Assembly: GCF_000717335.1 (NCBI RefSeq)
Contig: NZ_JNYZ01000038.1
Location: 1-64,000 of the forward strand
Length of the DNA: 64,000 nucleotides
From: Amycolatopsis jejuensis
Lineage (GTDB): Bacteria; Actinomycetota; Actinomycetes; Mycobacteriales; Pseudonocardiaceae
Direction: 5' to 3'
Shown: positions 11,560 through 31,763 of the stretch, piece by piece
Numbering within the stretch: position 1 is the stretch's first letter
Layout of the letters: each line of letters begins with the position of its first letter
Translations under genes and position numbers: made by a program
The notes under the pieces: generated by a model
The model's database searches: none
What the model saw: only the letters and a program-made list of their open reading frames with translations
What the model was told of the DNA's origin: nothing

Positions 11560-11701
11560 GTCGCCGGACCTCCTTCGCAGGCGAACGAAGTATCCGAGGC
11601 CGCGGCCGCCGGGCACCATGGTGCGATTCGCGCAGCGCCGTCGCCGGACTGCGCGATCCGGAGATCGGCGAACCACGCCGCCGGGACCGTAGACTCCGGC
11701 G
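11560..11701. promoter_or_regulatory. Divergent promoter region, hydroxylase operon / pucR-like gene
   Basis: A 142-bp gap between the divergent FAD subunit and the PucR-type regulator, the expected place for PucR autoregulation and operon control. I see the ribosome binding site of the minus gene but no repeat strong enough to name as the operator. Confidence 0.4.
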
Positions 11702-13183: not shown

Positions 13184-13310
13184 CTGTCTTCTCGCCACTG
13201 TGCGCAGAAGCGGGTCGCCGATGCGCCACAACGCGCACTACTGCAGGCGTGCGGCGCCGCTCACACTTCCAACTCATCGCGCCCCCTTCCGACGAGTTGC
13301 GAGGATCCCC

Positions 13311-16830: not shown

Positions 16831-19580
16831 ACCGGTCGCGTGGCTTCCTCCAGTGACACCAGCACCGACCGGTACGGGCGCCCGGTTGCGCTGGTCAGGG
16901 CCATTTCGCAGGTACGGTTGGCGGAGAGATACCGGTCGTACGACGCCGCCTTGACCTCGGCGGCCTCCGCGGCGGTCGCCGACGCCGTCAGTTCCGGGTG
17001 CAGCAATCCGCGGTCTCCGGCGAACGCGCAGCAGCGCCAGTTGTCCGGGATTTCCACCGTGTCCGCGAAACATTCGGCGAGTTTGCGCAGCGTGTCCACC
17101 GCGCCGAGGTGGACCAGCGAGCACGTCGGATGCAGGACGACCCGCTGGAACGGGCGGGTGATTTCCAGCCTCGGCACGAGTTCGGAGTAGGCGAACTGCA
17201 CCGAATCCAGCACCCGGACAGCACTACCGAGATCGGCCAAGCCGTGGGTGCACGAGGACGCGTCCATCACCGCCGGGAGCTTGCCGTCGTCGGTCCAGGT
17301 CTGCAGGCGGCGCCTCATTCGCTCCGCCATTGCCCGGTGACCGGACTCCATTCCCTTGGAATGCCACGGCGTCCCGCAGCAGGAACCGGCCAGGTCGTCC
17401 GGGATGCGGACCGGCACCCGAGCCCGTTCGCACAACGTGAGGAACGCGTCGACCACTGACGGCTCATGCGGGGTGTCGGGGCCGAACATCGCGTTCACGC
17501 AAGCGGGGAAGTACACCGCGCGGGCGTCGGGTGGGTTCCGGCCGCTGGGGTATTTCGCTGCGGCGGTGGGCATTGTGGACGTCCACTGTGGAATGGGTCC
17601 GAGGACGGCGCGGCCTGCTCGGGTGAGGGCTTCGGTCGAGCCTCCCAGCAGGTGTCCGGTGCGGATTCCGGTGCGCGCGGCGGCGGTCACGCCACTCCAG
17701 CCGCTGGCGAATCCCCGCCACGCGGCCTTCGCGGGTTGCGAAGCCGACTCCGCGCGCAGTTGCCGCACCAGGTCACCGGTGTTGATGTCGACCGGACAAG
17801 CCTGCTGGCACATTCCGTCCACGGCGCAGGTTTGCAGGCCTTCGTACTGGTAATCGGCAAGCAGTTCATCCGACTGCCGTCGCTCGAGCTCGCGGTGGAC
17901 GACAATCCGTTGCCGCGGCGTGAGGGTGAGATCCGCGCTCGGGCAGACGGGTTCGCAGTACCCGCATTCGATGCAGCGGTCCACGACCTCGTCGACGGTC
18001 GTCGTGGTTTTGAGATCTCGCAGGTGGGCTTGCGGATCGTCGTTGAGGATGACCCCGGGATTGAGCACGCCGTCCGGGTCGAAGAGCTGTTTCACGCGCC
18101 GCATCACGCTGGTGAGACCGGCGCCCCACTGGCGTTCGAGGAACGGCGCCATGTTGCGGCCGGTACCGTGCTCGGCTTTGAGGGAACCGTCGAGCCCGAG
18201 CACCAGGTCGACCACGTCGTCGGTGAGATTCGCGTACTGCTGCACGGCAGTGTCGGTGCGGAAATCCTGGTTCACCAGGAAGTGGATGTTCCCGTCCTTC
18301 ACGTGCCCGAAGATGATCCCGTCGTACCCGTGCCGGTCGAACAGGCCGGTGAGCTCATCGCACAAAACCGAGGTCGACCCGGTGGGCACGACGACGTCTT
18401 CGAGCACCGGCGTGGTGCCGGTCGGCCGGGGACCGGCGACGGCGGTGTACAGCCCGGAGCGCATCTGCCACAGCCGATCGTGCCCGGCGCGGCTCGCGTC
18501 CAGCGCGGCCGGGGTGGACAGCGGCAGCCCGGCGAGTGCTTTTTCCGCCTGGAGAAGCGTTTCGCGCAGGGATTCGTCGTCAGTGGTGCCCCATTCGGCG
18601 AGCAACCCGGCGGTGGCCGGGCCGACCGTCTCCCGCGCCAGCACCGGATCGGACATCCCGGCGGCAACGCGCAGGGAAGCGTTGTCGAGGAGTTCGAGCG
18701 CGACCGCGCCGGAGTCGCGCAAGGCGTCCAGCGCGGCGCAGGCTCGGCCCAGGTCAGGGAAAAGCAGAAGCCCGGTGGCGGTTTTGGGCAGGATCGGGAC
18801 CGTGCGGAAGGTCCCTTCAGTAATGAACCCCAGCGTACCCTCCGACCCGACGAGCAGGTGCGCCAGCAGCTCAGCCGGACGTTCGTGGTCCAGGAACGCA
18901 TTGAGGCTGTACCCGAGAGTGTTCTTCATCGAGAACTGGTGGCGGATCTTCCGGACAAACCCAGCGTTGTCGAGGATTTCCCTACGCAGCAGGACAAGCC
19001 CGTCGTGCAACGCGCGTTCCCGGGTGTACAACTGGTGGTCCGCGTCCGGATCGCCGGTGTCGACGACCGTACCCGACGGCAGCACGACGACGAGCGACTC
19101 CAACGTCCGGTAAGCGTTCGCGACGATGCCGCAGCTCTTCCCGCTGGAGTTGTTGGCCACCATCCCGCCGATCGTGCACGCCACCGCACTCGACGGGTCC
19201 GGCCCGAGCTGCCTGCCGTACGGCTTCAACCGCGCGTTGACCTGCGCGATCGTGAGCCCAGGTTGGACTCGCACGCGTGCCCCGCCGTCCAGTACCTCGC
19301 AGTCTCGCCAATGCCGTTTGACCTCGACGAGCACGCCGTCCGAAACTGCTTGCCCGGCAAGGGAACTTCCACCGGCCCGGAACACCAGTGGGACGCCGAG
19401 CCGAGAACCGGTACGCATCAGCTTCGCCACCTCGTCCGCGCCGGACGCGTGGACCACGGCCTGGGGGAGGAGGTGGTAGAAACTCGCGTCGGCGGCGAAC
19501 GCGACCCGGTCGATCTCCCGCGAACGCACCCGCGACGGATCGGCAACGCAGGACCGGAGTTCGTCGTCGAGCGTGGTCAT
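16824..19580 (-). CDS. FAD-linked and Fe-S 2-hydroxyacid dehydrogenase (GlcD-GlcF-like fusion)
   Basis: 918 aa from the ATG at 19580. The N-terminal FAD-binding (PCMH) domain covers about residues 35-220, with IGGMVANNSSGKSCG. A FAD-oxidase C-terminal domain with GHVKDGNIHFLVN and EHGTGRNMAPFL follows. Two ferredoxin motifs are CIECGYCEPVCP (about 536) and CAVDGMCQQACP (about 585). The C-terminal CCG-type domain has GSCCG (about 735) and RCCAF (about 851). Such fusions oxidise D-lactate, D-2-hydroxyglutarate or similar acids and pass electrons to quinone, cytochrome or Etf. The ATG overlaps the stop of the GntR gene. It is divergent from the aconitase-X operon and probably belongs to the same pathway. 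Confidence 0.88.
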   Translation of the reverse strand: MTTLDDELRSCVADPSRVRSREIDRVAFAADASFYHLLPQAVVHASGADEVAKLMRTGSRLGVPLVFRAGGSSLAGQAVSDGVLVEVKRHWRDCEVLDGGARVRVQPGLTIAQVNARLKPYGRQLGPDPSSAVACTIGGMVANNSSGKSCGIVANAYRTLESLVVVLPSGTVVDTGDPDADHQLYTRERALHDGLVLLRREILDNAGFVRKIRHQFSMKNTLGYSLNAFLDHERPAELLAHLLVGSEGTLGFITEGTFRTVPILPKTATGLLLFPDLGRACAALDALRDSGAVALELLDNASLRVAAGMSDPVLARETVGPATAGLLAEWGTTDDESLRETLLQAEKALAGLPLSTPAALDASRAGHDRLWQMRSGLYTAVAGPRPTGTTPVLEDVVVPTGSTSVLCDELTGLFDRHGYDGIIFGHVKDGNIHFLVNQDFRTDTAVQQYANLTDDVVDLVLGLDGSLKAEHGTGRNMAPFLERQWGAGLTSVMRRVKQLFDPDGVLNPGVILNDDPQAHLRDLKTTTTVDEVVDRCIECGYCEPVCPSADLTLTPRQRIVVHRELERRQSDELLADYQYEGLQTCAVDGMCQQACPVDINTGDLVRQLRAESASQPAKAAWRGFASGWSGVTAAARTGIRTGHLLGGSTEALTRAGRAVLGPIPQWTSTMPTAAAKYPSGRNPPDARAVYFPACVNAMFGPDTPHEPSVVDAFLTLCERARVPVRIPDDLAGSCCGTPWHSKGMESGHRAMAERMRRRLQTWTDDGKLPAVMDASSCTHGLADLGSAVRVLDSVQFAYSELVPRLEITRPFQRVVLHPTCSLVHLGAVDTLRKLAECFADTVEIPDNWRCCAFAGDRGLLHPELTASATAAEAAEVKAASYDRYLSANRTCEMALTSATGRPYRSVLVSLEEATRPVQ

Positions 19581-20389
19581 GAGTTCTTTCCGTTGACGCG
19601 GACCAGCCGGGTCGACGGGGCGGAGAAGTCGTAGGCGGCGCCCTGCAGGTCGGCGGCGTTGATCCGCAGCTGCAGCTCGATGGCGTCCGGTCGCAGGTAC
19701 AGGTTCGTGCATTCGAGCATCGCGTCGTCCCGGTCGAAAGTGGTGCGCTGCAACACCAGCAGCGGTGAACCCAGTGGCGCGTCGAGTGCTTCGAGGTCTT
19801 CGGTGACCGCCAAGCTGCGCACGATCACGTCCGCGTGGTGCGGTTCGCGGCCCAGCTTGTTCTGGATCACCTGGTAAACCGGGTGATCCTCGAGGTCGGC
19901 GCGCGTGATGAGCAGGCCGAGCTGCTTGGGCACGAAGATGTCCGCAATGGACGTGGGGACCCCGTCCGCGCGGTAGAGCCGCCGGACGTGCAGTGCTTCC
20001 TGGTCGGTCTCCGCAATCGGCTCGGGAAGCCGGGCCGAATCGCTGACCCACTCGTGGATCAGCAGCTTTCCCTCGGGCTCCTGCCCGGCCTCGGTGAAGA
20101 TCGTGACGAACGGGCGCAGCTGGTCGAGGCCGTGTACCAGGCGGTTGTGCCGGACGAAGGTGCCCTTGCCGCGCCTGCGGGTCAGCAACCCCTCGTCGAC
20201 CAGGGTGTCGAGCGCGCGGCGGACGGTCGCGCGGCTGATCCCGTGCTCGGTCATCAGCTCCATTTCGGTGGGCAGCTGCCCACCCGGCCCGAGCTCCGCC
20301 GCGAGTGCGCGCAAACGCATGGAGAGCTGCTGGTGCACGGGTTCGGCGGACGCTCTCGTCAGTGCGTCCGCGGGATCTGGCCTCGTCAC
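19577..20389 (-). CDS. GntR/HutC-family regulator with UTRA domain
   Basis: 270 aa from GTG 20389, chosen because AGGGG lies just upstream; an in-frame ATG at 20431 would add 14 residues. The winged HTH (about 20-85) has LPTEMELMTEHGISRATVRRA and LTRRRGKGTFV; a UTRA ligand domain follows. These repressors usually bind a small carboxylate, sugar acid or amino acid derivative. It is co-transcribed with the FAD/Fe-S dehydrogenase (ATGA overlap) and divergent from the aconitase-X operon. It is therefore the likely switch for both sides. Confidence 0.9.
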   Translation of the reverse strand: MTRPDPADALTRASAEPVHQQLSMRLRALAAELGPGGQLPTEMELMTEHGISRATVRRALDTLVDEGLLTRRRGKGTFVRHNRLVHGLDQLRPFVTIFTEAGQEPEGKLLIHEWVSDSARLPEPIAETDQEALHVRRLYRADGVPTSIADIFVPKQLGLLITRADLEDHPVYQVIQNKLGREPHHADVIVRSLAVTEDLEALDAPLGSPLLVLQRTTFDRDDAMLECTNLYLRPDAIELQLRINAADLQGAAYDFSAPSTRLVRVNGKNS

Positions 20390-20462
20390 TCGGTCACCCC
20401 TAGGTATTGCAATGTCTGGTGTTGTGTGCATACATTACCATACAAATCGCGAAGGGGAAGTC
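20390..20462. promoter_or_regulatory. Divergent promoter/operator region of the aconitase-X cluster
   Basis: A short A/T-rich gap between divergent transcripts. It holds the 8-bp palindrome ATTGCAAT (20406-20413) and the direct repeat ATACATTACCATACA (about 20430-20444). Both are good candidates for binding by the GntR protein. The Shine-Dalgarno of the plus-strand gene is GAAGGGGAAG at 20451-20460. Confidence 0.45.
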
Positions 20463-21692
20463 ATGAAGCTGACTGATGACGAGCGCGCGATGATCGGCGG
20501 CGAAGCAGGTCCGGTGCTGCAGAAAGCCCTCACCTACCAGCTGCGGCTCGCGGAGTTCTTCGGTGCGGACCACTTCGTGCCGGTCACCAACGCGCACTTC
20601 ACCGGAGACTTCGAGGTCATGGACTCCGGTGGGCTCGCCTACGTCGAGGAGCTCGCCGCCGCGGGAGCCAAGGTCCGGGTGCCGACCACGCGCAATTCGA
20701 CCTGCGTCGACCCGGCCGCGGCCGGGCAGCTCAAGCAGCGCTGCACGCTGGTCGACGGCGAGCTGCGGGTGGGTCCGATGCTGCGCCGGATGGGTGTGCT
20801 CACGGTGAACACCTGCATCGGGTACCAGACCGTGTACACGCCGCGCCTCGGCGAACACGTGGCGTGGGGCGACACCGGCACGGTGGCGTACGCGAACTCG
20901 GTGCTCGGCGCTCGTACCAATTACGAGGCCGGACCGGCAAGCCTGTTCGCCGGGATCACGGGCCGCACCGCCGCCTACGGGTTCCATCTCGACGAGCACC
21001 GGCGCGCCAACGTCGTCTGCCGGGTGGATGCGCCGATGACCGACCTGGCCGACTGGGGAGTTCTCGGACTCCTGGTGGGCAAACGGTTCCGCGGCTACTG
21101 GAACGTGCCGGTGTTCGAGTTCACCCGCGCCGAACCGACGCCGGATGCGCTGAAGCACCTTGCCGCCAGCATTGCGAGTTACGGCTCGATGGCGATGTTC
21201 CACGTCGCCGGGGTGACGCCGGAGGCCGATGATGCCGTCGGCGGGCGCGAGGTGCTCGAGCGGATCGTGTTGTCCAAAAAGGACATCGAGGATGTCTATG
21301 CGGAGCAAGGGAAAGACGACCAGGTCGTCGACCTGGTGGTGTTCACCGCGCCGCAGCAGTCACTGCTCGAAGTGCAGCAGATCGCCGACCTGCTCGACGG
21401 GCGGCGGGTGCATCCGGACGTGGACGTCATCCTCACCACGAACTCGATGGTCGCGAAGGCGGCTGCCGAGGAAGGGCTCACGAATGTGCTTTCCCGGTCC
21501 GGCGCCATGCTGCTCGTGGGTACCTGCTGGTATTTGATGGACCCGGCGGAAATGCGCGAAAGCTTCGGATGGAAGCGGCTGGTGACCAATTCCGCGAAGC
21601 TCGCGAACATCATCCGGGCGCACGGATACGAACCGGTCCTGCGGCGGACGGCCGAATGTATTGACGCGGCCGTTTCGGGAAAGGTACGGTAA
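20463..21692 (+). CDS. Aconitase X (AcnX) catalytic large subunit
   Basis: 409 aa. The N-terminal LTDDERAMIGGEAGP and the whole length fit the separate large subunit of the aconitase X family. Known type II AcnX enzymes are dehydratases, such as cis-3-hydroxy-L-proline dehydratase and archaeal phosphomevalonate dehydratase. Three cysteines (C81 in NSTC, C118 in NTCIGYQT, C355 in GTCW) are likely Fe-S ligands. The stop overlaps the small-subunit ATG. It is the first gene of a ten-gene operon with a ComA-like protein and redox enzymes, none of which belongs to a proline or mevalonate route, so a different hydroxy acid is likely. Confidence 0.85.
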   Translation: MKLTDDERAMIGGEAGPVLQKALTYQLRLAEFFGADHFVPVTNAHFTGDFEVMDSGGLAYVEELAAAGAKVRVPTTRNSTCVDPAAAGQLKQRCTLVDGELRVGPMLRRMGVLTVNTCIGYQTVYTPRLGEHVAWGDTGTVAYANSVLGARTNYEAGPASLFAGITGRTAAYGFHLDEHRRANVVCRVDAPMTDLADWGVLGLLVGKRFRGYWNVPVFEFTRAEPTPDALKHLAASIASYGSMAMFHVAGVTPEADDAVGGREVLERIVLSKKDIEDVYAEQGKDDQVVDLVVFTAPQQSLLEVQQIADLLDGRRVHPDVDVILTTNSMVAKAAAEEGLTNVLSRSGAMLLVGTCWYLMDPAEMRESFGWKRLVTNSAKLANIIRAHGYEPVLRRTAECIDAAVSGKVR

Positions 21693-22099
21693 TGGAATTC
21701 ACGGCGAAACAGGCCACCGGGCCGGTAGTTGTCGCGCCCGCGTTGGTCACGCGAATGCCGTTCAGCGCCCGGTACGACCTCGACCGCACCACCGGGGTGA
21801 TTTCCCGCAACGACCACGAACTGCGCGGCGAATCCATTGCCGGACGGGTGCTCGTCACCCGCGGCGTGCAGGGCGGGGTGGCGGCCGGCTGGGCGCTGCT
21901 CGCGCTGGCCGCGCGGAAATGCGGGTTCGCCGGAATGGTGTTCGGGGACACGAATCCGGTGATGGTGCAGGGTGCCGTCGCCGCGGGAATTCCGGTGTTC
22001 GCGGGGATCGACCCCGAGTTCTTCGACGTCGTCCGGACCGGCGACACGGTGGAGCTCGACCCGGCGGCGCGGCTGGTGCGGATCGTGCCCGCCGCCTGA
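21692..22099 (+). CDS. Aconitase X swivel small subunit (DUF126-type)
   Basis: 135 aa, the usual size of the separate AcnX swivel subunit. The fold is recognisable in ESIAGRVLVTRGVQGGVAAGW and the C-terminal TGDTVELDPAARLVRIV. In typical members the glycine-rich loop carries serines (GRGSSxxS-like) thought to be catalytic; here the loop reads RGVQGG with no serine. This may indicate an altered substrate or mechanism. It starts within the stop codon of the large subunit. Confidence 0.8.
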   Translation: MEFTAKQATGPVVVAPALVTRMPFSARYDLDRTTGVISRNDHELRGESIAGRVLVTRGVQGGVAAGWALLALAARKCGFAGMVFGDTNPVMVQGAVAAGIPVFAGIDPEFFDVVRTGDTVELDPAARLVRIVPAA

Positions 22100-22128
22100 A
22101 ACGCTTCGAAAAGAAAGGTGCATCGAGA

Positions 22129-22926
22129 ATGAGCAACCGAGGATTCTCGGAAATCCCGCTCCCGGTCGAACGGGAGCCGAAACCGCGGAATTCCGCGATG
22201 ACGATGATGATCGACTGGGCGCTGCCGTTGCGGTACCAGGCCGACCTCGTGGAGATGAACGGCGAATTCATCGACCTCGCCAAGATCGCGGTCGGCCTTT
22301 CCGGGCTGCTGGACCGTGACAAACTCCGGGCCAAGGTCGGGAATTATCAGGAAAACGGCATCGAGCCCTTTCCCGGCGGCATGTTCCTGGAGTACGCTCA
22401 CCACATCGGCAAGGAAGAAGAATACTGGCGGGGCTGTGCCGAGGCCGGATACCGGCTGATCGAGGTTTCCGACAACGCCATTCCGCTCGATGCCGACACG
22501 AAGCGTCGCCTGATCAAGGAGGCGGCCGCCCGCGACCTGCGGGTGCTCGGCGAGGTGGGCAGCAAGCACACGGTCACCTCGGCCGACGCGCTCATCGCGG
22601 ACGTCACGCAATGCCTGGATGCGGGTGCGTGGAAGGTGTTCATCGAGGCCGCCGAGCTCGTCGAGGACGGGAAGCTGCGCACCGACCTCGTCGACCGCAT
22701 CCGCACCGAGCTCGACGCCGACCGGCTCCTGTGGGAGCTGCCCGGCTCGTGGATTTCCGGTACGCACGAATGCGACGTGCACGACCTGGCCGTGTACCTG
22801 CTCGAAAACCTCGGCCCGCACACGAACATCGCCAACGTGATGCCGCAGTGGATTGCCGAGCTCGAAACGCTGCGCACGCGCATCGGGGTCCGCACGCTCG
22901 CGGACGAAATGCCGCAGCACGCCTGA
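22129..22926 (+). CDS. Phosphosulfolactate synthase (ComA) family protein
   Basis: 265 aa from the ATG at 22129. It follows the ComA TIM-barrel family along its length: TMMIDWALPL (25-34), QADLVEMNGEFIDLAKIAVG (37-56), PFPGGMFLEYA (80-90), IEVSDNAIPL (111-120) and GEVGSKH (141-147). True ComA adds sulfite to phosphoenolpyruvate in coenzyme M synthesis, a pathway this bacterium would not be expected to need. In this operon it probably catalyses addition to, or elimination from, another unsaturated acid, perhaps C-S bond cleavage. The family call is well supported; the reaction is inference. Confidence 0.8.
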   Translation: MSNRGFSEIPLPVEREPKPRNSAMTMMIDWALPLRYQADLVEMNGEFIDLAKIAVGLSGLLDRDKLRAKVGNYQENGIEPFPGGMFLEYAHHIGKEEEYWRGCAEAGYRLIEVSDNAIPLDADTKRRLIKEAAARDLRVLGEVGSKHTVTSADALIADVTQCLDAGAWKVFIEAAELVEDGKLRTDLVDRIRTELDADRLLWELPGSWISGTHECDVHDLAVYLLENLGPHTNIANVMPQWIAELETLRTRIGVRTLADEMPQHA

Positions 22927-22942
22927 AGGGAGATTTTCTCGG

Positions 22943-24412
22943 ATGACCCAGCAGCTTCAGCGACCGCAGGACCGGACATTGCCGGACGGGGACCTGGTGA
23001 TCGGCGGCGAACATCGCGCGTCGTCGTCGGGGGAGACGTTCGACGTCTTCAACCCCAGCACCGGCGCCAAGCTCTGCTCGGTGGCGAAGGGCACAGCCGG
23101 TGACGTGGACGCGGCGGTACGCAGTGCCCGCGCCGCTTTCGCCGGATGGCGCGAGACGACGCCGCTCGAACGCGGCCGGATCCTCGCCAGGGCAGGCCGG
23201 ATGCTGGCCGAACGCCAGGCCGAGTTCGCCGACGTCGAATGCCGTGACGCCGGAAAACCCAAGCGCCAGGCCGTGGTCGACACCGTGGTCGCCGCCCGCT
23301 ACTTCGAGTACTACTCCGGCTACGCCGACAAGCTCCACGGCCGCACAATCCCGCTCGGGCCGGATTTCCTCGACTACACGGTCCTCGAACCCCACGGCGT
23401 CTGCGGCGTGATCACGCCGTGGAACTACCCGCTGGCCATTGCCTGCCGCAGCCTCGTGCCCGCGCTCGCGGTGGGCAACAGCGTGGTGTTCAAACCGGCG
23501 GAGGACGCGCCGCTCACCGGCCTGATGCTGGTCGACCTGCTGCACGAGGCCGGGCTGCCCGCCGGGGTGCTCAACGTGGTGCCCGGGCTGGGTACCGAAG
23601 CGGGGGCCGCGCTGGTCGAGCACCCGGACGTGGACCACATTTCGTTCACCGGCTCGGTTCCGGTGGGTCAGCGCGTGATGGCGGAATGCGCCAAGCACCT
23701 GCGCCCGCTCACCCTGGAGCTCGGCGGGAAATCGCCGCACATCGTGTTCGCCGACGCCGATTTCGACAAGGCGCTGCCGGTGATCATGAACTCGATCTTC
23801 CAGCACGCCGGTCAGACGTGCACCGCCGGTTCGCGGCTGCTCGTGCAGGAATCGGTGTACGACAAGTGGGTGGCGGCGGCCAAGGCACACGCGGCGAAGC
23901 TCGTCGTTGGCGATGCATCCGAAGACCTCGACCTCGGTGCGCTCATCAACGAGGCACAGCAGACCCGGGTCGCCGGATTCGTCGACCAGGCACGGGAATC
24001 CGGGGTCACGGTGGAAACCGGCGGCCGTCGTCCGGACGGGCTCGCCGGTGGCTGGTACTACGAGCCGACGGTGCTCAGCAACGTCGACCCGCTGTCGCCG
24101 ATCGCCCAGGAGGAGGTGTTCGGCCCGGTCCTCACGGTGATCCCGTTCCGCGACGCCGAACATGCCGTCGAACTGGCCAACTGCACGGAATACGGGCTGG
24201 CCGCAGGGGTTTGGTCTTCCGATGTGGACACGTGCGTGCGCACCGCGGCGCAGGTCCGGGCCGGGCAGGTGTACGTGAACAACTTCGGGGCCGGTGGCGG
24301 CGTGGAACTGCCCACCGGCGGGTTCGGCAAGAGCGGTTTCGGCCGCGAGAAGGGCCTCGAAGCGCTGCTGAGCTTCACCAGTGTCAAGAACGTGAGTTTG
24401 CGTCTCGGGTAG
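22943..24412 (+). CDS. NAD(P)-dependent aldehyde dehydrogenase
   Basis: 489 aa, full length. Landmarks are PWNYPLAIA (substrate/cofactor site), FTGSVPVGQ (cofactor loop), LELGGKSP with the general-base glutamate, and GQTCTAGSR with the catalytic cysteine (about residue 293). It oxidises an aldehyde to the acid. It resembles betaine- and semialdehyde-type members more than CoA-acylating ones. The gene starts 16 bp after the ComA-like gene, inside the same operon, so it handles an aldehyde of that pathway. Confidence 0.92.
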   Translation: MTQQLQRPQDRTLPDGDLVIGGEHRASSSGETFDVFNPSTGAKLCSVAKGTAGDVDAAVRSARAAFAGWRETTPLERGRILARAGRMLAERQAEFADVECRDAGKPKRQAVVDTVVAARYFEYYSGYADKLHGRTIPLGPDFLDYTVLEPHGVCGVITPWNYPLAIACRSLVPALAVGNSVVFKPAEDAPLTGLMLVDLLHEAGLPAGVLNVVPGLGTEAGAALVEHPDVDHISFTGSVPVGQRVMAECAKHLRPLTLELGGKSPHIVFADADFDKALPVIMNSIFQHAGQTCTAGSRLLVQESVYDKWVAAAKAHAAKLVVGDASEDLDLGALINEAQQTRVAGFVDQARESGVTVETGGRRPDGLAGGWYYEPTVLSNVDPLSPIAQEEVFGPVLTVIPFRDAEHAVELANCTEYGLAAGVWSSDVDTCVRTAAQVRAGQVYVNNFGAGGGVELPTGGFGKSGFGREKGLEALLSFTSVKNVSLRLG

Positions 24413-24439
24413 ATCCCCCACGACGAAAAGGTGGCAACA

Positions 24440-25771
24440 ATGTCGTACCACCGGACGGATTCCGGGCCTGTCCAACGCAATCCGTTGCGGGCCTGGTCGA
24501 TCACCGTGATGGCGATGGTCTTCATGCTCATCAACTTCGCGGACAAGGCCGTGCTCGGCCTGGTCGCGGTGCCGTTGATGAAAGACCTGCACATCAGTCC
24601 CGCGCAGTTCGGCTTCGCGGCCAGTTCGTTCTACTTCCTGTTCAACGTGGCTGCCGTGGTCTACGGGTTCCTGGCCACCCGGATGTCGCCGAAGAAAGCG
24701 TTGCTGCTGCTCGCGATCGTGTGGACGGTCGCGCAGCTGCCGATGGCGCTCAACGTCGGGTTCACCGTGCTGGTGCTCACCCGCGTACTGCTCGGGATCG
24801 GGGAAGGGCCGGCGTACCCACTGGCCAACCACGCGGTCTTCTCCTGGTTCCCGCCCAAGCGCCGCGCCCTGCCGAGCTCGCTGCTGACGGTCGGTGTCGG
24901 GCTCGGCGGCGTGGTGGCTGCCCCCGTGCTGGCCTACCTCATCGCCGAGCACGGCTGGCGCGCGGCTTTCCTGGCGATGGCCGCCGTCAGCGGGGTCTGG
25001 GCACTGCTGTGGATGGTCATCGGCAAGGACGGCACCGAAGCCGCTCCCGTCGAGGACCGTCCGGCGAGCGACCTGCGCGTGCCGTACCGGAAGCTGTTCC
25101 TGTCCCGGACCTTCCTCGGCGGCGTGCTCGGCGGGTTCGCGAGTTACTGGGGCCTGGCCACGATGATCTCGTGGCTCCCGGCCTACCTGGAGAACATCGG
25201 CGGCGTGAGCGCGCGGACCACCGGGGTGCTGCTGATGCTGCCGTGGGGCGCGATGGGATTGCTGACCCTGGTGTCCGGCTGGGTCGTGCACCGGTTGCTG
25301 CGCCGAGGTGTGCGCGGCAGGCTGGTCGTCGGCGTGGTCGGTGGCGGAATGCTCGCCGCGGGCGGGGTTTTCGTGCTCATTTTCGCGATGCTGTCGTACG
25401 GCGTGGTGCAGCTGGTGGTGATGACGGTCGGGTTCGGCACGCTGTCACTGCTGTATGCACTGCAGCAGACGTCGGTGTCCGAGATCTGCCCGAGTTCGCA
25501 GCGCAGTGCGGTGCTGAGCACGAGCAATGCGTTGCTGACCCTCGGCGGGATCGTCGCGCCGTTCGTCGCGGGATTGGTGATCGATTCCGCGAGTACGCCC
25601 GCGGCCGGGTACCGGTCGGTGTTCGTACTGGGCGGCGCGATCATGATCGTCGGCGGAATCATCTTCGCGGTGCTCGTGCGCCCCGACGCCGACGCGCGCA
25701 AACTCGGGACAGCGGCGGAGCCCCGGCCGAGCTCGGACGAAGCGGCGGACCTGCGTCCTTCGAACACCTGA
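24440..25771 (+). CDS. MFS transporter, anion:cation symporter-like
   Basis: 443 aa with about 12 membrane segments. The ATG at 24440 is preferred over GTG 24431 because AAAAGG lies 10-15 bases upstream. The pattern (NFADKAVLGLVAVPL in helix 1, GIGEGPAYPLANHAVFSWFPPKRRA after helix 4) is that of the ACS group. Members of that group import organic anions such as glucarate, phthalate or hydroxy acids. It lies in the aconitase-X operon and probably carries the pathway substrate across the membrane. Confidence 0.88.
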   Translation: MSYHRTDSGPVQRNPLRAWSITVMAMVFMLINFADKAVLGLVAVPLMKDLHISPAQFGFAASSFYFLFNVAAVVYGFLATRMSPKKALLLLAIVWTVAQLPMALNVGFTVLVLTRVLLGIGEGPAYPLANHAVFSWFPPKRRALPSSLLTVGVGLGGVVAAPVLAYLIAEHGWRAAFLAMAAVSGVWALLWMVIGKDGTEAAPVEDRPASDLRVPYRKLFLSRTFLGGVLGGFASYWGLATMISWLPAYLENIGGVSARTTGVLLMLPWGAMGLLTLVSGWVVHRLLRRGVRGRLVVGVVGGGMLAAGGVFVLIFAMLSYGVVQLVVMTVGFGTLSLLYALQQTSVSEICPSSQRSAVLSTSNALLTLGGIVAPFVAGLVIDSASTPAAGYRSVFVLGGAIMIVGGIIFAVLVRPDADARKLGTAAEPRPSSDEAADLRPSNT

Positions 25772-25798
25772 AGCTGTGCAACAGAGAGGAATTGTGAC

Positions 25799-26707
25799 AT
25801 GACCACACCGCGGATCGGATTCATCGGGCTCGGCGCGATGGGTGCCCCGATGGCGATGAACCTGGTGAAAGCCGGATACGCCGTGACGGTGTTCGACCTC
25901 AGCCCGCCGGCGGTCAACCGGCTGCGTGACGCGGGTGCGACGGCGGCGACCACCGCCCGCGAGGTCGGCGAGAACAGCGACGTGGCGATCACCATGCTGC
26001 CGCGTTCGGCGCACGTCGAGGCCGCGGTGACGGGCGAGTACGGGTTGTACCGGGGGCTCGCCAAGGGCGCGGTGCACATCGACATGAGCACCATCGAGCC
26101 GTCGGCGAGCAAGCGGTTTGCCGAGCTGGCACAGGAAAACGGGCTGCGGATGTTCGACGCGCCGGTCGGCAAGTCCACCGCGGCGGCGGCAGCGGGCGTC
26201 CTCACGATCATGGCCGGCGGCGATCCCGCGGTCGTGGACGAATGCCGCCCGATCCTCGACGTGATGGGCGAGATCGTCTACCACTGCGGTTCGGAGGTCG
26301 GGGCCGGGGCGGCGGTGAAGGTCGTCAACAACCTGGTGTCCGGCGGGATTCTCGTGGTGGTGGCCGAGGCGATGGGGCTGGGTGTCAAGGCAGGCGTGCG
26401 GCCGGAGATCATGGTCGAGGTGCTCGGGGCGACCGGCGCGGCCAACTGGCAGCTGGCGAACACGCTGGCACAGAAGGCACTCAAGCGCGACTACGAACCG
26501 GGCTTCGCGATTTCGCTGATCCACAAGGACTGCGGTCTCGGCGCGCAGATGGCCGAGGACCTGAAGGTGCCGATGCCGGTGTCCGGGCTGGTCAAGCAGC
26601 AGTACGAGGCCGCGATGGCGGCCGGGCACGCGGGGCTGGACTGGGGTGGCTATCTGAAGGTGATCGAAGCGGCCATCGGCGAGGACGTGGCGTTCGGCGC
26701 CGCCTGA
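25799..26707 (+). CDS. Beta-hydroxyacid dehydrogenase (HIBADH family)
   Basis: 302 aa. The Rossmann motif GFIGLGAMGAPMAMNLVKAG is at 7-26 and the catalytic lysine is K174 in VKVVNN. The substrate loop is not the usual DAPVSGG. It reads DAPVGKSTAAAAAG (120-133), close to the DVPVGRTSANA form that I recall from sulfolactaldehyde/hydroxybutyrate reductase YihU. The enzyme interconverts a beta- or gamma-hydroxyacid and its semialdehyde, matching the aldehyde dehydrogenase two genes upstream. An anionic, possibly sulfonated, C3 substrate is an inference. Confidence 0.87.
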   Translation: MTTPRIGFIGLGAMGAPMAMNLVKAGYAVTVFDLSPPAVNRLRDAGATAATTAREVGENSDVAITMLPRSAHVEAAVTGEYGLYRGLAKGAVHIDMSTIEPSASKRFAELAQENGLRMFDAPVGKSTAAAAAGVLTIMAGGDPAVVDECRPILDVMGEIVYHCGSEVGAGAAVKVVNNLVSGGILVVVAEAMGLGVKAGVRPEIMVEVLGATGAANWQLANTLAQKALKRDYEPGFAISLIHKDCGLGAQMAEDLKVPMPVSGLVKQQYEAAMAAGHAGLDWGGYLKVIEAAIGEDVAFGAA

Positions 26708-26728
26708 GCACGAAGGGAACGAAATCCG

Positions 26729-27562
26729 ATGAGCAATTCAGCAGAGCTCGACCTGATCCTGTCCGGCGAGCGTGACGAACCCATGACGGGGGAGGAGTTC
26801 CTCTCCGCGATGTGGGAACGGCGGCAGAACTACTGGTGGTCGAAGCCCGCCGAGGAAAGGACGCACTACGTCGGTTTTTCCACCGACATCGAGCAGGTCA
26901 AGGAACGGCTCAAGATCCAGTGTCACGCCGAGCTGTTCGCGGCGTACGTGGCGGGGAACATGCTGGAGATCTGCCCGTGGCAGGATCTGCGCGGGGACCT
27001 GGCCAAACAGGCGTACGACGAATTCCTGCACTTCAAGCTGATCAGGGGCAGGCTGCGGCACCTCGGCGGCGAGTACGAGGAGGGATACCGGCCGCCGGTA
27101 CGGGAATGGCGGGAACTGATCTCGAATGTCACGCTCACCGAGAACCGGTACTACAACGACCCGGTCACCTCGATGATCGCGATGTCGGCGAGCCTGCAGT
27201 TCGCCATCGAGGGCTGGGACGAGCTGTTCATCCACCCGCATTTCATGAAGGCGATCGAAACGAAGGACCCGGAACTGTACGAGATCTTCGACGAGCAGAT
27301 TGCCGCGGACGAGGTCGTGCACCACGAAAACGGTCTGCGGGCCATGCTGAAGTGCGGCGACAATCTCGATTGGCAGCGCACCGCGATCCGGCATTTCGAC
27401 AGTGCCGCCGACGGTTTGCACCAGGCAGGTCTCGGGTTCCGGAACTATTTCGCCGCGCAGGAAGGGATTCCCGCGTTCTCCGGGGAGGGCGACGACATCG
27501 CCGAGTCGATCCAGGAAGTCTCGTTCGAGAAGTTCTTCTCCGAACGCGGCCTGCCGCTGTGA
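26729..27562 (+). CDS. Ferritin-like diiron protein, putative oxygenase
   Basis: 277 aa. Four helices carry a complete carboxylate-bridged diiron set: E68, E98xxH101, E161 and E195xxH198. E68 and E98 are 30 residues apart and E161 and E195 are 34 apart, as in ferritin-like oxygenases and oxidases. I cannot place it in a named subfamily. The Rieske ferredoxin gene starts 6 bp after its stop and the Etf fusion follows, which suggests an O2-activating enzyme fed by that electron chain. Substrate and reaction are unknown. A heme-oxygenase-like diiron fold is less likely because of the twin ExxH pattern. Confidence 0.7.
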   Translation: MSNSAELDLILSGERDEPMTGEEFLSAMWERRQNYWWSKPAEERTHYVGFSTDIEQVKERLKIQCHAELFAAYVAGNMLEICPWQDLRGDLAKQAYDEFLHFKLIRGRLRHLGGEYEEGYRPPVREWRELISNVTLTENRYYNDPVTSMIAMSASLQFAIEGWDELFIHPHFMKAIETKDPELYEIFDEQIAADEVVHHENGLRAMLKCGDNLDWQRTAIRHFDSAADGLHQAGLGFRNYFAAQEGIPAFSGEGDDIAESIQEVSFEKFFSERGLPL

Positions 27563-27568
27563 GGGATC

Positions 27569-27901
27569 ATGCGTCTCAAAGCCGCTGACCTGGCACAGCT
27601 TGCCGAGGACGGGTCGTGGGTCCGGGTTCGGCACGAGCGCCTCGACGTGCTCGTGGCGAACTCCGGCGGTGACCTCTACGCCATCGACAACCGCTGTTCC
27701 CACGCCAATATGCCGATGCACAAAGGCCGGATCCGCAAATGCGTGGTCACCTGCCCGTCGCATCTGGCGCAATTCGATCTGCGGGACGGGTCGATCCGGC
27801 GCGGCCCGATGGAGGGAGACCCGGAAAACGTCCGCCCGCAGGCCGTGTTCGCCGTGGAAATCGAGGGCGGCGAGGTTTTCATCGAGGTTCCGGGAGAGTG
27901 A
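27569..27901 (+). CDS. Rieske [2Fe-2S] ferredoxin
   Basis: 110 aa, the size of a free Rieske ferredoxin. The cluster ligands are C43 and H45 (CSH) and C62 and H65 (CPSH), with the expected 16-residue spacing. It is a soluble one-electron carrier, as used by toluene and biphenyl oxygenases. It lies between the diiron protein and the Etf fusion with gaps of 6 and 2 bp, so it probably links the two. Confidence 0.92.
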   Translation: MRLKAADLAQLAEDGSWVRVRHERLDVLVANSGGDLYAIDNRCSHANMPMHKGRIRKCVVTCPSHLAQFDLRDGSIRRGPMEGDPENVRPQAVFAVEIEGGEVFIEVPGE

Positions 27902-27903
27902 TC

Positions 27904-29703
27904 ATGCTGGCACGAAACGGTCCGCTGACGGTGGTCTGCATAAAGCAGGTACCCGTTGCTGCCGCGGTGGAATTCGACGCGGAAACCGGGACGTTGCGCC
28001 GCGACGGAATTCCGGCGGAGGTGAACTCGCACGACGTTCGTGCCTTGCTTTCCGCCCTTGCCGTGCGGGAGCGGTGCGGCGGCTCGGTGGTGGTGGTCAC
28101 GATGGGTCCGCCGGATGCCGCCTCCGCGCTGCGTTACTGTCTTGCGCTGGGGGCGGATCGGGCAATCCACTTGTGCGACAAGGCATTCGCGGGTTCGGAC
28201 ACTCTCGCGACCGCTCGTGCGCTTGCTCTCGCGATCGGCCGGGAAGAGCCCGATGTGGTCCTGTGTGGACGGAGCAGCACCGATGCCGAGACGGGCAATG
28301 TCGGTCCGGAGATTGCCGAGCTGCTCGGATGGCCGCAGGTCACCGGGGTGTGTGCGTGGGAGCTCGGGGACACCGTCGTCGCCCGCAGGGAGGTCGACGA
28401 CGGGTTCGAGCAGGTCTCGGTGACCACCCCGGCGGTGCTGGTGGTCGGGGAGGATGTGGCGGAGGAGCGGTTCCCCTCGCGGGAGGCACGGTCGGCGGCA
28501 GCGTCGATGCCGCTTGAGGTGGTCGGGGTGACTGACCTGGGTGCCGATCCGGCGTTGTTCGGCGCGGCGGGTTCGCCCACCGTGGTCACGTCGGTGCAGG
28601 AGCAGCCGGGGGTCAAGCGCGCCAACGTGATTCTCGACGATTCTGCTTCCGCGCAGGCTGACGCGATCGTCGAATGGCTGTCGGCGCATGGCTCTTCGGG
28701 GGGCGATCGTCGTCTCCCGGCACCGGAAACCGTGCGGACCGAGGGTTCGTCGATCGCCGTGTACGTGGAGACTGGGCCTGATGGGATTACCCAGGTTTCG
28801 CGGGAACTGCTGGCCGCGGCCTCGGGGCTGGGACGGGTCGATGCGGTGCTGATCGGTGACCGGAAGCATTGCGCCGAGCTGGTCGCGTACGGGGCGGACC
28901 GGGTGCTCCACATCGACGCTGCCGGGTACGACACTCTGGTGCACACGGCCTTTGTCGTAGACGTGATCCGGGCGTACGCGCCGCGGGTGATGCTGTTCCC
29001 TTCCACCGGGCGTGGCCGCGACCTGGCGCCCCGTCTTGCCGCCCGGCTGGGGCTTGGTCTCACCGCCGATTGCGTCGGGTTGCACTTCTCGCGTGGACAG
29101 CTGGTGCAGCACAAACCTGCTTTCGGGGATGGGTTGCTGGCGATGATCACCTCGCGGACGAGTCCTGAGCTGGCCACCGTGCGTCCGGGGGTCTTTTCCT
29201 CGTTTCTTCCTCGATGGGACCGGCCGGTTCGAGTGGAGCGGCTCGCTCTTGATCATCGGCCGTCGCGCGGATATACTGTGCTGAAAGAAATTCCTGGCCT
29301 GCGGAGGTCCACTGTGGACCTTTTCGGGGCGGACATCGTGCTGGGCGTCGGCATGGGCGCGGCCGGTGTCCTGCCCGAGGTCGAGCGGCTGGCCGGGCTG
29401 CTGGGCGCCGGAGTGGCGTGCACCCGCAAGCTGGCCGACACCGGTGCCTTGCCTCGGCATGCGCAGGTCGGGTTGACCGGATGTTCGGTGTCGCCGCGTA
29501 TTTACGTGGCGATCGGGGTCCGCGGGGCGTACGAGCACGTGGTCGGCCTGAGCCGCGCCGAGCACGTCCTGGCCATCGACATCGACGAGGACTCGTTCAT
29601 GTTCGACCACGCCGACCTCGGCGTGGTCCAGGATTGCGGGATCCTGCTGCCACTGCTGGCGCAACGGCTTTCGCTGCTGGAGGAACAGTGCACACACGCG
29701 TGA
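27904..29703 (+). CDS. Electron transfer flavoprotein, fused EtfB-EtfA
   Basis: 599 aa. Residues about 1-255 match Etf beta (VVCIKQVP at the start, the nucleotide loop CGRSSTDAETGNVGPEIAEL near 120). Residues about 285-599 match Etf alpha, including PSTGRGRDLAPRLAARLGLG and the C-terminal FAD domain with GLTGCSVSPRIYVAIGVRGA and HADLGVVQDC. The usual GQTG of EtfA is GLTG here. The two subunits are normally separate genes; a single-chain form in the order B-A is uncommon. It may take electrons from the divergent FAD/Fe-S dehydrogenase and deliver them to the Rieske/diiron pair. That direction is inference. Confidence 0.88.
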   Translation: MLARNGPLTVVCIKQVPVAAAVEFDAETGTLRRDGIPAEVNSHDVRALLSALAVRERCGGSVVVVTMGPPDAASALRYCLALGADRAIHLCDKAFAGSDTLATARALALAIGREEPDVVLCGRSSTDAETGNVGPEIAELLGWPQVTGVCAWELGDTVVARREVDDGFEQVSVTTPAVLVVGEDVAEERFPSREARSAAASMPLEVVGVTDLGADPALFGAAGSPTVVTSVQEQPGVKRANVILDDSASAQADAIVEWLSAHGSSGGDRRLPAPETVRTEGSSIAVYVETGPDGITQVSRELLAAASGLGRVDAVLIGDRKHCAELVAYGADRVLHIDAAGYDTLVHTAFVVDVIRAYAPRVMLFPSTGRGRDLAPRLAARLGLGLTADCVGLHFSRGQLVQHKPAFGDGLLAMITSRTSPELATVRPGVFSSFLPRWDRPVRVERLALDHRPSRGYTVLKEIPGLRRSTVDLFGADIVLGVGMGAAGVLPEVERLAGLLGAGVACTRKLADTGALPRHAQVGLTGCSVSPRIYVAIGVRGAYEHVVGLSRAEHVLAIDIDEDSFMFDHADLGVVQDCGILLPLLAQRLSLLEEQCTHA

Positions 29704-29981
29704 CGAAGTACCAGCTGAAACCGGGCCGGACCGCCGAAGCCCTCCAGCTGGTCCGCGACCATTGGCTGAACCTGATCACCGGCGCGGAGGGTTTCGTGTC
29801 CTTCGAAATGATCGAAACCGACGCCGACGAACTGGTCGGCCTCCTCACGTTCACCACGGCGGAGCAAAGCCTTTCCGCACTGGAACTGGCGCGGGAATGG
29901 GTCTTCGAGAACTTCGGCGACCTGCTGGCCAGCCCGTCGGAGATGACGATGGGAACGGTCCGGATCTCCACGATGCGCTGA
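29688..29981 (+). CDS. Small ABM/dimeric alpha-beta-barrel protein
   Basis: 97 aa from GTG 29688, which lies inside the end of the Etf gene with AGGA upstream. The pattern (TKYQLKPGRTAEALQLVRDHW, then GFVSFEMIETDADELVGLLTFTT) is that of antibiotic-biosynthesis-monooxygenase or related ferredoxin-like dimers. Such proteins may be cofactor-free oxygenases, lyases or accessory proteins. It is the last gene of the operon. Confidence 0.65.
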   Translation: MHTRVTKYQLKPGRTAEALQLVRDHWLNLITGAEGFVSFEMIETDADELVGLLTFTTAEQSLSALELAREWVFENFGDLLASPSEMTMGTVRISTMR

Positions 29982-30233: not shown

Positions 30234-30697
30234 TCACCCGCGAGCGGCGGCTTCGACGAGCTGGTCGTGCGCGCGTGCCCGGGCTGCCGCGATCTCCGCC
30301 CGACAGGTCGACCGGGTCGAAAACAGCGTGCTCAGCAGCCGCAGGTCCCACGGAGTTGCGGCTGGGCTGATGAGCAGGGTGTGGAATTCGCGGTGGGAGT
30401 CCCAGCGGTGGTCGCCGGGGGCGGATTCGAACGTCTCGCGCTTGAGGGCGGCCAGCTCGGGTTCGATCATGAGCCGGAGCCGGTGGGTCGAGCGCAGGTC
30501 GTCGATGTCGAGTGGGGTCACGCAGGCACTGCGGGACGGGCTCAGCACCACGAGCCCCTGCGCTTCGAGGCGGCGCAACGGGATCGACCGCCGACGCCTT
30601 GCGGGCCACCACGGACCGGACTCCCTCCGGCTGTCCTGCCACGTCTCGTCTCCCGAAGCCCTGCGCTGCGTCCGGTCTGCGCACTCCTGGTTGACAT
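30234..30697 (-). pseudogene. Decayed GntR/FCD-family regulator
   Basis: The minus strand starts well (ATG 30697, MSTRSAQTGRSAGLRETR, like a GntR N-terminus). It then loses frame, and the rest is found in a different frame: IPLRRLEAQGLVVLSPSRSA and TPLDIDDLRSTHRLRLMIEP, typical of the wing and the start of the FCD ligand domain, then WDSHREFHTLLIS. The total length is only about 150 residues where 210-240 is normal, so there is a frameshift plus an internal deletion. It probably once controlled the divergent FAH-family gene, whose promoter carries a likely operator. Confidence 0.6.
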
Positions 30698-30719
30698 CAT
30701 ATAGCATATATCCTAGCGT
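30691..30719 (+). promoter_or_regulatory. Sigma70-type promoter with embedded operator
   Basis: TTGACA (30691-30696), a 17-bp spacer and TAGCGT (30714-30719) form a near-consensus promoter on the plus strand. The spacer contains the inverted repeat ATATA-GCA-TATAT (30699-30711), a likely repressor site. The start codon of the decayed GntR gene overlaps the -35 box on the other strand. The promoter would drive the FAH-family gene at 30915. Confidence 0.6.
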
Positions 30720-30745
30720 TTCGTCCTGGAAGACGAGGAGGGCGC

Positions 30746-30914: not shown

Positions 30915-31763
30915 ATGCGATTCATGAACCATGCCGGCCGGTTGACTCTCGTGGACCGCGAGGGGCGCGGCATCGACGTCAACCTGGCCAGCGGCGGCAG
31001 ATTGCCTGCTGCCGTGGCCGAAGCCTTCGATCGGTGGGACGAGGTCGCCGAATGGGCGCGGACGTTTTCCGGTTCCGGGGACGTCGAGATCCGGCCGGAC
31101 CTCGTCGGGCCGCCGTCCCCCGATCCGCGGCAGATTTTCGGAGTGGGCGTGAACTACGCGTCCCACGCGAAGGAAGCGGGCATGGAACTGCCGGAACATC
31201 CGTTGATCTTCACGAAACTTCGCGCGGCGGTGGCCGGTCCGTACGACGAGATCGAGATTTCCACCGATACCGTCGACTGGGAAATCGAGCTGGCGGTGGT
31301 GATTGGGGCGACCGCGCGGCGCGTTCCGGCCGAACGGGCGTGGGACCACGTCGCCGGGCTCACCGCCGGCCAGGATCTGTCCGATCGCGGGATTCAGCTG
31401 CGTCCCGCGTCGGCGCCGCAGTACACGCTCGGGAAGTCGCTGCCCGGATTCGGGCCGACCGGGCCGCTGCTCGCGACGGCCGACGAGTTCGCCGACCCGA
31501 ACGACCTCGAGCTGGTCTGCCTCGTCAACGGGGAAGAAATGCAGCGAGCACGCACGTCGGATTTCATCTTCTCCATTCCGGAAATCGTCGAATACCTTTC
31601 CGGGATCACGATCCTGTACCCCGGCGACGTGATTCTCACCGGCACCCCGGACGGGGTCGGCGCCACCCGGACACCGCCCCGCTACCTGCAGGCCGGGGAC
31701 GTACTGGAAAGCCGGATCGAGGGAATCGGCGAAATGCGGCACGTGCTCGTGGCCGCCGGATGA
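30915..31763 (+). CDS. FAH-family hydrolase/isomerase
   Basis: 282 aa. It is a full fumarylacetoacetase-like domain: IFGVGVNYASHAKEAG (about 75-90), the metal-binding glutamates in DWEIELAVVIG (about 120-130), the aspartate in AGQDLSDRG, and the C-terminal GDVILTGTPDGVGA. Members hydrolyse acylpyruvates or isomerise/decarboxylate oxo acids from aromatic catabolism, with Mg or Mn. A strong promoter lies at 30691. It may act on ring-cleavage products of the aromatic cluster at 39-48 kb, which lacks its own FAH gene; this link is inference. Confidence 0.88.
   Translation: MRFMNHAGRLTLVDREGRGIDVNLASGGRLPAAVAEAFDRWDEVAEWARTFSGSGDVEIRPDLVGPPSPDPRQIFGVGVNYASHAKEAGMELPEHPLIFTKLRAAVAGPYDEIEISTDTVDWEIELAVVIGATARRVPAERAWDHVAGLTAGQDLSDRGIQLRPASAPQYTLGKSLPGFGPTGPLLATADEFADPNDLELVCLVNGEEMQRARTSDFIFSIPEIVEYLSGITILYPGDVILTGTPDGVGATRTPPRYLQAGDVLESRIEGIGEMRHVLVAAG

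Follow-up and report, generated by a model that had tools for sequence, protein, structure and literature searches.

A 64,000-nucleotide stretch of the Amycolatopsis jejuensis genome (the window) contains ten forward-strand genes that look like a genuine, undescribed degradation pathway, because most of the families involved occur together again in a genome from another phylum. The run encodes the large and small subunits of an aconitase X (AcnX-L and AcnX-S), a protein related to phosphosulfolactate synthase (ComA), an aldehyde dehydrogenase (ALDH), an MFS transporter, an HIBDH-type beta-hydroxyacid dehydrogenase, a ferritin-like diiron protein, a small Rieske ferredoxin, a fused electron-transfer flavoprotein (ETF; EtfBA) and a small ABM-like protein. 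We tentatively read it as an operon that breaks down a small anionic substrate, in which an oxygenase would act first, the ComA-like protein would carry out an elimination and AcnX a hydration. An initial annotation, made from the letters alone, had placed the ten genes on one strand with gaps of at most 35 bp; all ten lie where it put them, between 20463 and 29981, with neighbours overlapping or standing at most 29 bp apart. Of its family assignments, eight of the ten exceed curated Pfam cut-offs. The diiron protein has no Pfam family, and the ABM-like protein stays under the ABM cut-off of 23.1 bits, as does its Rhodococcus jostii RHA1 counterpart (18.8 bits), though a homologue that passes (30.5 bits; locus L117, below) supports the putative assignment. 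The divergent pair that it had named was likewise recovered, the GntR/UTRA regulator by Pfam and the GlcD-GlcF-like dehydrogenase by NCBIfam models that each score under their cut-offs (YdiJ, 173 bits; GlcD, 164.3; GlcF, 58.9).

A pattern scan of an 84,980-species genome collection with a ComA-like alignment returned 63 loci. The Chloroflexi metagenome-assembled genome (MAG) G742 encodes homologues of 11 of the 12 proteins of the ten-gene run and its divergent pair, the regulator and the GlcD half of the dehydrogenase included, on two contigs and at 29–60% identity. On the first contig (locus L006) the gene order is HIBDH, AcnX-L, AcnX-S, SsuA-like binding protein, ABC-type ATPase, ComA, permease, diiron, Rieske and SulP, and the six proteins shared with the window are 48–59% identical to their counterparts (HIBDH, 56%). 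The second contig (locus L117) carries homologues of ALDH (60%), the ABM-like protein (46%), EtfBA (45%) and the GntR regulator (40%), the last divergent from EtfBA, together with a CynX/NimT-type MFS transporter. A GlcD protein adjoins EtfBA–ABM there and matches the window protein at 29% over 472 of 918 residues, leaving the GlcF half unmatched. The window's own MFS transporter has no match on L006 or L117, the parts of the G742 genome that were searched. The proposal of a dedicated pathway had been tied to synteny beyond close relatives, which this MAG provides, and the recurrence in a second phylum indicates that the gene set is more than a chance grouping.

The ten genes are not one indivisible unit, a possibility that we rejected because RHA1, locus L118 and contig C20 of the window's own genome carry partial sets. 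The suggested check for co-occurrence of all ten families was borne out in part: most of them stand together in G742, and the set is composite, with submodules that occur separately. Plasmid pRHL1 of RHA1, the one record retrieved in a plasmid search with the diiron protein, encodes diiron, Rieske, EtfBA and ABM homologues at 54–61% identity, with no AcnX or ComA in the module; its neighbours include tartrate-dehydrogenase-like (468.3 bits, cut-off 470.4), citrate-synthase and fumarase genes. Contig C20 carries a second module of HIBDH, Xsc-family, Pta-like, diiron, Rieske and EtfBA genes, with two genes between HIBDH and diiron. One scan reported an internal TGA in the C20 diiron gene and a later one none; we rejected the idea that the gene is broken, as it reads through without a stop from its own start codon (protein P0128). 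In a second genome of the G742 phylum (G978), locus L123 encodes diiron (36% identity), Rieske (44%) and HIBDH (34%) homologues near genes for a 2-hydroxyacyl-CoA lyase and a protein with an acyl-CoA mutase domain, each scoring above its cut-off. A genome from another family of the window's class (G550) has, at L118, AcnX-L and AcnX-S (52% and 51%), ALDH (35%) and HIBDH (43%), without ComA or diiron. Across the five contexts of the diiron gene, Rieske accompanies it in all five, HIBDH clusters with diiron–Rieske in four (the window, C20, L006 and L123; not RHA1) and EtfBA accompanies it in four, in G742 on the second contig.

The diiron protein is rare. Its best Pfam score is with DUF455, at 19.4 bits against a cut-off of 34.3, and searches of 5.8 billion proteins found 7 relatives and then, with an alignment, 14; these are clusters at 90% identity and an under-count, as the L123 copy is not among them. 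E68, E98, H101, E161, E195 and H198 are invariant in 14 of 14 sequences and kept in the L123 copy. In the predicted model (pLDDT 87.7, pTM 0.88), the letters of the E/ExxH/E/ExxH pattern fall one set per long helix (residues 54–81, 85–111, 145–179 and 181–208), so that letters and predicted helices together match the four-helix pattern of a ferritin-like diiron oxygenase. In structure comparison, diiron proteins and TenA-type proteins scored with much the same Z in large number, which did not separate ferritin-like from heme-oxygenase-like (TenA/CADD/UndA/HrmI) folds; the ligand pattern, a feature of the letters, favours the ferritin-like fold. Genome scans, whose genus, family, class and phylum samples overlap, found the gene in 1 of 80 genus genomes (absent from 79), 1 of 297 family genomes and 7 of 394 class genomes, six of the last being 20–24-bit matches, which leaves the window's genome as the only one with a true orthologue. 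Among genomes of the G742 class and phylum, 1 of 29 and 2 of 400, respectively, had a true match. Scanning the genome collection with the diiron alignment gave no relative, which is an under-count, because L006, later found in that collection, has other letters at both patterns used.

The best solved matches to EtfBA are 5ol2, 4kpu, 6fah, 7koe and 7qh2 (LctBC), all of which we take to be bifurcating ETFs. The partner of LctBC, LctD, is a GlcD-type dehydrogenase. Relatives of this type suggest NADH or a GlcD-type enzyme as the partner of EtfBA, and a GlcD-type gene lies nearby in the window. Unlike in the bifurcating ETFs 5ol2, 4kpu, 6fah and 7qh2, its nearest solved relatives, the beta and alpha parts are fused in the window and encoded beside a Rieske ferredoxin and a diiron protein. 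The system also differs from bacterial multicomponent enzymes such as toluene 4-monooxygenase: it has a single short hydroxylase chain, and Pfam and NCBIfam recognised no effector domain and no flavin or flavin/2Fe-2S reductase domain among the ten proteins.

A closer precedent is the aib cluster for 2-aminoisobutyrate degradation in Rhodococcus wratislaviensis, in which, according to the sections of the report consulted, a dinuclear hydroxylase and a Rieske ferredoxin give a hydroxymethyl product that HIBDH-family AibD1 and the ALDH AibE oxidise to the carboxylate (PMC7782822). Like aib, the window has a transporter, a small Rieske ferredoxin, enzymes of the HIBDH and ALDH families and a putative dinuclear-metal hydroxylase; it differs in that the aib hydroxylase is the TIM-barrel amidohydrolase-fold pair AibH1H2 and a reductase, AibF, stands where the window has EtfBA. 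Among the aib genes covered here there is no EtfBA, AcnX or ComA (PMC7782822). Similarly, SfbO is described, in the part of its report that we draw on, as an amidohydrolase-related dinuclear oxygenase that converts aminoethanesulfonate buffers to sulfoacetaldehyde and whose native substrate is unknown (PMC10811679); it was found through an adjoining Rieske ferredoxin, and it differs in fold (PF04909). The parts of the operon are of known kinds and its pathway logic has a precedent in aib. With the diiron ligand set and the Rieske partner, this makes an O2-dependent step likely, as the initial annotation had supposed.

The ComA-like protein belongs to the Pfam family but misses the cut-off of the archaeal ComA equivalog TIGR03849 (150.4 bits against 280). 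It shares with the solved ComA proteins (Protein Data Bank entries 1qwg, 1u83, 9cm1 and 24fo) the Pfam family, the lysines of K-[FI]-[GA] and EVG-[KS]-K, and N-[LI]-A-N. It differs in having EAAE for the E-[GA]-R-E found in all four solved sequences (three of them nearly identical) and IDW for LDK or IDN, and no kinase or phosphatase gene accompanies it in the operon. We propose that it is a beta-elimination lyase. The neighbours of ComA-like genes cluster into mixed contexts, with sulfatase-like, TRAP, ABC, CocE hydrolase and DUF3604 families, so that no single substrate follows from them.

AcnX family membership is likewise clear, as both the large-subunit and the swivel Pfam models score over cut-off. 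In AcnX-L, Asp137 within a GDTG motif replaces the catalytic Glu (Glu129 of TkAcnX). All 13 subclass members checked (the window and 12 others) have GDTG, and none of six other AcnX proteins does, those having ESS or ESN. The consulted parts of one study give as landmarks of the mevalonate-5-phosphate dehydratases (Type IIb) Glu129-Ser130-Ser131, Lys361, Tyr365 and a three-Cys cluster site, and describe the remaining Type II subclasses as without the landmark residues of either known enzyme (PMC8184944). In the window, Asp-Thr-Gly stands for Glu-Ser-Ser, Ile for Tyr, and one Cys is absent; the Lys and two Cys are kept. Compared with the characterised AcnX enzymes, as far as the passages seen describe them (C3LHyp and mevalonate-5-phosphate dehydratases; PMC8184944, PMC5144071), the family, the two-subunit Type II layout, the catalytic Lys and two Cys are shared, whereas the window has GDTG for the Glu motif and no Tyr near the Lys. 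By its residues, the window AcnX probably falls in one of the Type II subclasses IIc–IIf, which are uncharacterised. The initial annotation had noted that ComA forms a C–S bond and that AcnX enzymes dehydrate hydroxy acids; membership of both families stands, and these roles are not readable from the names, because equivalog cut-offs are missed and active-site letters are changed.

A GDTG-type AcnX gene was present in the sequence retrieved around the ComA-like gene at 5 of the 63 other loci; in L019 the two are on opposite strands, some 4 kb apart. Apart from the window, the loci where GDTG AcnX occurs near ComA-like genes carry the labels Chloroflexota, Myxococcota and Pseudomonadota. Among 41 further ComA genomes, 7 have the GDTG subclass elsewhere (583–639 bits), 5 have another AcnX (225–304 bits), 5 a weak match and 24 none; of 246 genomes from the window's class, two have the subclass, the window's own among them, and this sample is of other taxa and not a matched control. 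In the ComA tree the AcnX-linked label is clustered, with 3 changes and none of 500 shuffles as low; the labelled groups are the window with L006 and L007 (support 93/78), and L019 with L020 and L027; the close relationship between L020 and L027 favours such clustering.

From gene content, conservation, family membership and conserved ligand letters, we infer the reactions, the directions of AcnX and the ComA-like protein, the electron path and the kind of substrate as follows. The substrate would be imported by the MFS transporter, and electrons would pass from EtfBA through the Rieske ferredoxin to the diiron protein, which would hydroxylate an unactivated C–H (R-CH3 to R-CH2OH). The HIBDH-type dehydrogenase would oxidise the new alcohol to an aldehyde and ALDH the aldehyde to a carboxylate. 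The ComA-like protein could then take the proton alpha to the carboxylate and expel a leaving group (most likely sulfite) from the beta position; this would be ComA chemistry in the reverse sense on a non-phosphorylated substrate. AcnX would add water to the resulting enoate, and the hydroxy acid would be oxidised by HIBDH/ALDH or by the GlcD-GlcF-like dehydrogenase, with the GntR/UTRA protein as putative regulator of the operon. A C3 alkanesulfonate, for example, would pass through hydroxyalkanesulfonate, 3-sulfopropanal, 3-sulfopropanoate and acrylate plus sulfite to 3-hydroxypropanoate.

That the substrate is a sulfonate is about an even call. The initial annotation had offered an unusual hydroxy acid or a sulfonate, and gene context favours the latter as a candidate. 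The L006 operon encodes a binding protein of the SsuA family (110.1 bits, cut-off 163.5) together with an ABC-type ATPase and a TauC-like permease (168.7, cut-off 342), and it is followed by a SulP gene (PF00916, 259.3 bits, over cut-off). On C20 a gene of the Xsc (sulfoacetaldehyde acetyltransferase) family (TIGR03457, 681.7 bits against 676.4) precedes the diiron gene together with the Pta-like gene; this module would suit a route in which hydroxylation gives isethionate or a homologue and sulfoacetaldehyde-type cleavage follows. The ComA–AcnX pair of L020 lies near a TauD-family gene (PF02668, 260.7 bits, over cut-off; taurine dioxygenase model 251.3, cut-off 313), which L027 shares (81%), and L020 also has a weakly SsuA-like gene (43.1 bits). 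In its complete form, a new aerobic organosulfonate route in which an unnamed ferritin-like diiron monooxygenase is fed by a fused ETF through the Rieske ferredoxin, the ComA-like protein releases sulfite and a new AcnX subclass hydrates the product, the reading seems to us rather doubtful.

Several observations weigh against the proposed pathway. Domain scans recognised no sulfite-oxidising or sulfite-exporting gene in the window operon and no sulfonate gene among the scanned RHA1 neighbours. The L006 transporter scores under curated cut-offs, and SsuA-like binding proteins are broad in specificity. The Xsc-family protein of C20 is a divergent second copy about 5 bits over its cut-off, and a typical Xsc lies on contig C15 of the same genome (C15:14203–15945, 1026.9 bits), so that the C20 module may have another substrate. 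The typical copy makes it probable that the organism also breaks down a C2 sulfonate along the established route. The arginine of E-[GA]-R-E is missing from the ComA-like proteins, with EAAE in 24 of 24, and characterised AcnX enzymes dehydrate, so that hydration is assumed here. There is no EtfBA on L123, and an ETF need therefore not be the only donor; the mutase domain and 2-hydroxyacyl-CoA lyase of that locus fit branched carboxylic acids better, and the gene neighbourhoods in L123 and RHA1 resemble carboxylic acid metabolism. Finally, L006 and L117 are two contigs of a MAG, and a binning error would weaken the count of 11 of 12 proteins; the six families together on L006 are independent of L117.

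In a second possibility, a quite conceivable one, the oxygenase still acts first on a branched or hydroxy carboxylic acid that contains no sulfur, with the ComA-like protein as a C–C or C–O lyase or aldolase and AcnX as a dehydratase. The missed equivalog cut-offs of both proteins, the EAAE motif, the pairing of AcnX with ALDH and HIBDH on L118 without ComA or diiron, and the metabolic neighbours of the diiron genes in L123 and RHA1 all agree with it, whereas the SsuA-like transporter and SulP of L006 and the Xsc-family neighbour on C20 point to sulfur. Placing the diiron–Rieske–EtfBA module last, where it would oxidise or detoxify a product such as sulfite rather than hydroxylate the substrate, would account for its co-occurrence with sulfite-handling families (ComA-like, Xsc-family) and SulP. 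This is improbable: we know of no diiron sulfite oxidase, no sulfite-releasing neighbour was recognised in L123 or RHA1, and the HIBDH–ALDH–Rieske arrangement matches a hydroxylase pathway, to the extent that the aib report describes one. A biosynthetic or stress-tolerance unit would suit the strain-specific occurrence within the genus and the biosynthetic N-oxygenases among the best fold matches, though helical bundles score alike; it is hardly to be expected, as no synthetase or tailoring domain occurs among the ten proteins, and catabolic operons commonly include a transporter, ALDH, HIBDH and a GntR/UTRA regulator. It is extremely unlikely that AcnX acts here as the dehydratase of cis-3-hydroxyproline or mevalonate-5-phosphate, with the operon belonging to the corresponding pathway: AcnX does pass the family cut-off and a proline-racemase/hydroxyproline-epimerase-like gene (below cut-off) lies about 7.5 kb past the L118 AcnX, but AcnX-L scores 240.1 bits against the cut-off of 700 of the hydroxyproline dehydratase model NF051439 (fused Type I form), the Glu motif is changed throughout the subclass and no proline or isoprenoid gene stands in the ten-gene run.

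In the parts consulted, the open-access literature searched (subscription literature lay mostly outside the search) showed no such operon, in line with the initial annotation, which knew of no characterised pathway with this combination. We found there no description of AcnX paired with phosphosulfolactate synthase, of an ETF feeding a Rieske ferredoxin/diiron oxygenase, or of the RHA1 locus ro08814–ro08817. The operon offers functional hypotheses for three orphan groups: the Pfam-less diiron family, the GDTG AcnX subclass and the bacterial EAAE ComA subfamily, which has no known reaction and which the scan found across many phyla. If the ETF feeds the diiron enzyme, oxygenases would be supplied with electrons in a way for which the literature consulted showed no description; if the organosulfonate reading is true, an ETF would be joined to an oxygenase and a fold of coenzyme M biosynthesis turned into a desulfonating enzyme.

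Table 1. Positions of the operon genes, their divergent neighbours and related loci (window coordinates unless a contig or locus is named)
Feature	Position	Strand	Details
AcnX large subunit, GDTG subclass	20463–21692	+	PF04412 374.9 bits (cut-off 31.5)
AcnX small subunit (swivel)	21692–22099	+	PF01989 70.4 bits (cut-off 27); 1-nt overlap with AcnX-L
ComA-like protein, FPGGM/EAAE subfamily	22129–22926	+	PF02679 181.2 bits (cut-off 25.2); gap 29
NAD(P)-dependent ALDH	22943–24412	+	PF00171 Aldedh 574.1 bits; gap 16
MFS transporter, anion:cation symporter-like	24440–25771 (or GTG 24431)	+	MFS_1 178.6 bits; TIGR00893 144.8 bits (under cut-off 395); gap 27
HIBDH-type beta-hydroxyacid dehydrogenase	25799–26707	+	PF03446 NAD_binding_2 164.9 bits and PF14833; gap 27
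Ferritin-like diiron protein, without Pfam family	26729–27562	+	Predicted ligands E68, E98, H101, E161, E195, H198; gap 21
Small Rieske ferredoxin	27569–27901	+	PF00355 53.8 bits; gap 6
Fused EtfBA	27904–29703	+	ETF 238.9 bits, ETF_alpha 70.6 bits; gap 2
ABM-like small protein	GTG 29688 or 29700, to 29981	+	ABM 17.8 bits, sub-threshold; overlaps EtfBA
GlcD-GlcF-like FAD/Fe-S 2-hydroxyacid dehydrogenase, 918 aa	16824–19580	−	Divergent; NCBIfam, below cut-off
GntR/UTRA regulator	19577–20431 (start may be GTG 20389)	−	Divergent; UTRA 76.3 bits, GntR 65.4 bits (scores computed on 19577–20389)
Intergenic region, regulator/operon	20432–20462		31 bp (73 bp if GntR start is 20389)
C20 module (locus L005)	C20:212000–230000, locus positions 9535–16311		One run
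L123 cluster	L123:389–7150		Acyl-CoA mutase domain protein, 2-hydroxyacyl-CoA lyase, diiron, Rieske, histidine-phosphatase-like, HIBDH
Sulfatase-like and ComA-like loci	L023, L025, L026, L029, L033, L037, L041, L042, L046, L061

A DUF3604-family protein of about 747 residues is encoded near ComA-like or GDTG AcnX genes in L019, L020, L027, L062, L063 and L148, including three of the five AcnX-linked ComA loci, and the DUF3604 cluster also includes L022, L030, L039 and L058; L148 has a TauE-family gene further on. By eye, a sulfatase-like family adjoins the ComA-like gene in ten loci (Table 1), several of them labelled Poribacteria. In L123, positions 10298–11833 resemble, also by eye, a diiron monooxygenase large subunit, with no NCBIfam match.

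In the 31-bp intergenic region the promoter scan gave no sigma-70 match, and promoter and terminator scans were near background (1 against 0.9; 8 against 5.7); an imperfect palindrome (71%) lies at 20395–20424. Stretches of 9.5 kb across the window have 66.9–69.5% GC, and the operon, with 66.9%, is among the lowest. Outside the run, 933 bp past the operon, a forward-strand FAH-family gene (30915–31763) comes closest to the model for 2,4-didehydro-3-deoxy-L-rhamnonate hydrolase (184.6 bits against a cut-off of 500), and a plasmid search found no match to it above 60% identity. Between the two, the reverse strand at 30234–30720 resembles by eye the FCD part of a FadR/GntR regulator, with no evident intact start. 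ARAGORN reported a tRNA-Pro antisense to an open reading frame and a permuted tmRNA (33630–33714 and 10619–11050), which may be false positives in coding sequence. Window DNA matches six plasmid records, all from Streptomyces, Pseudonocardia or Nocardia.

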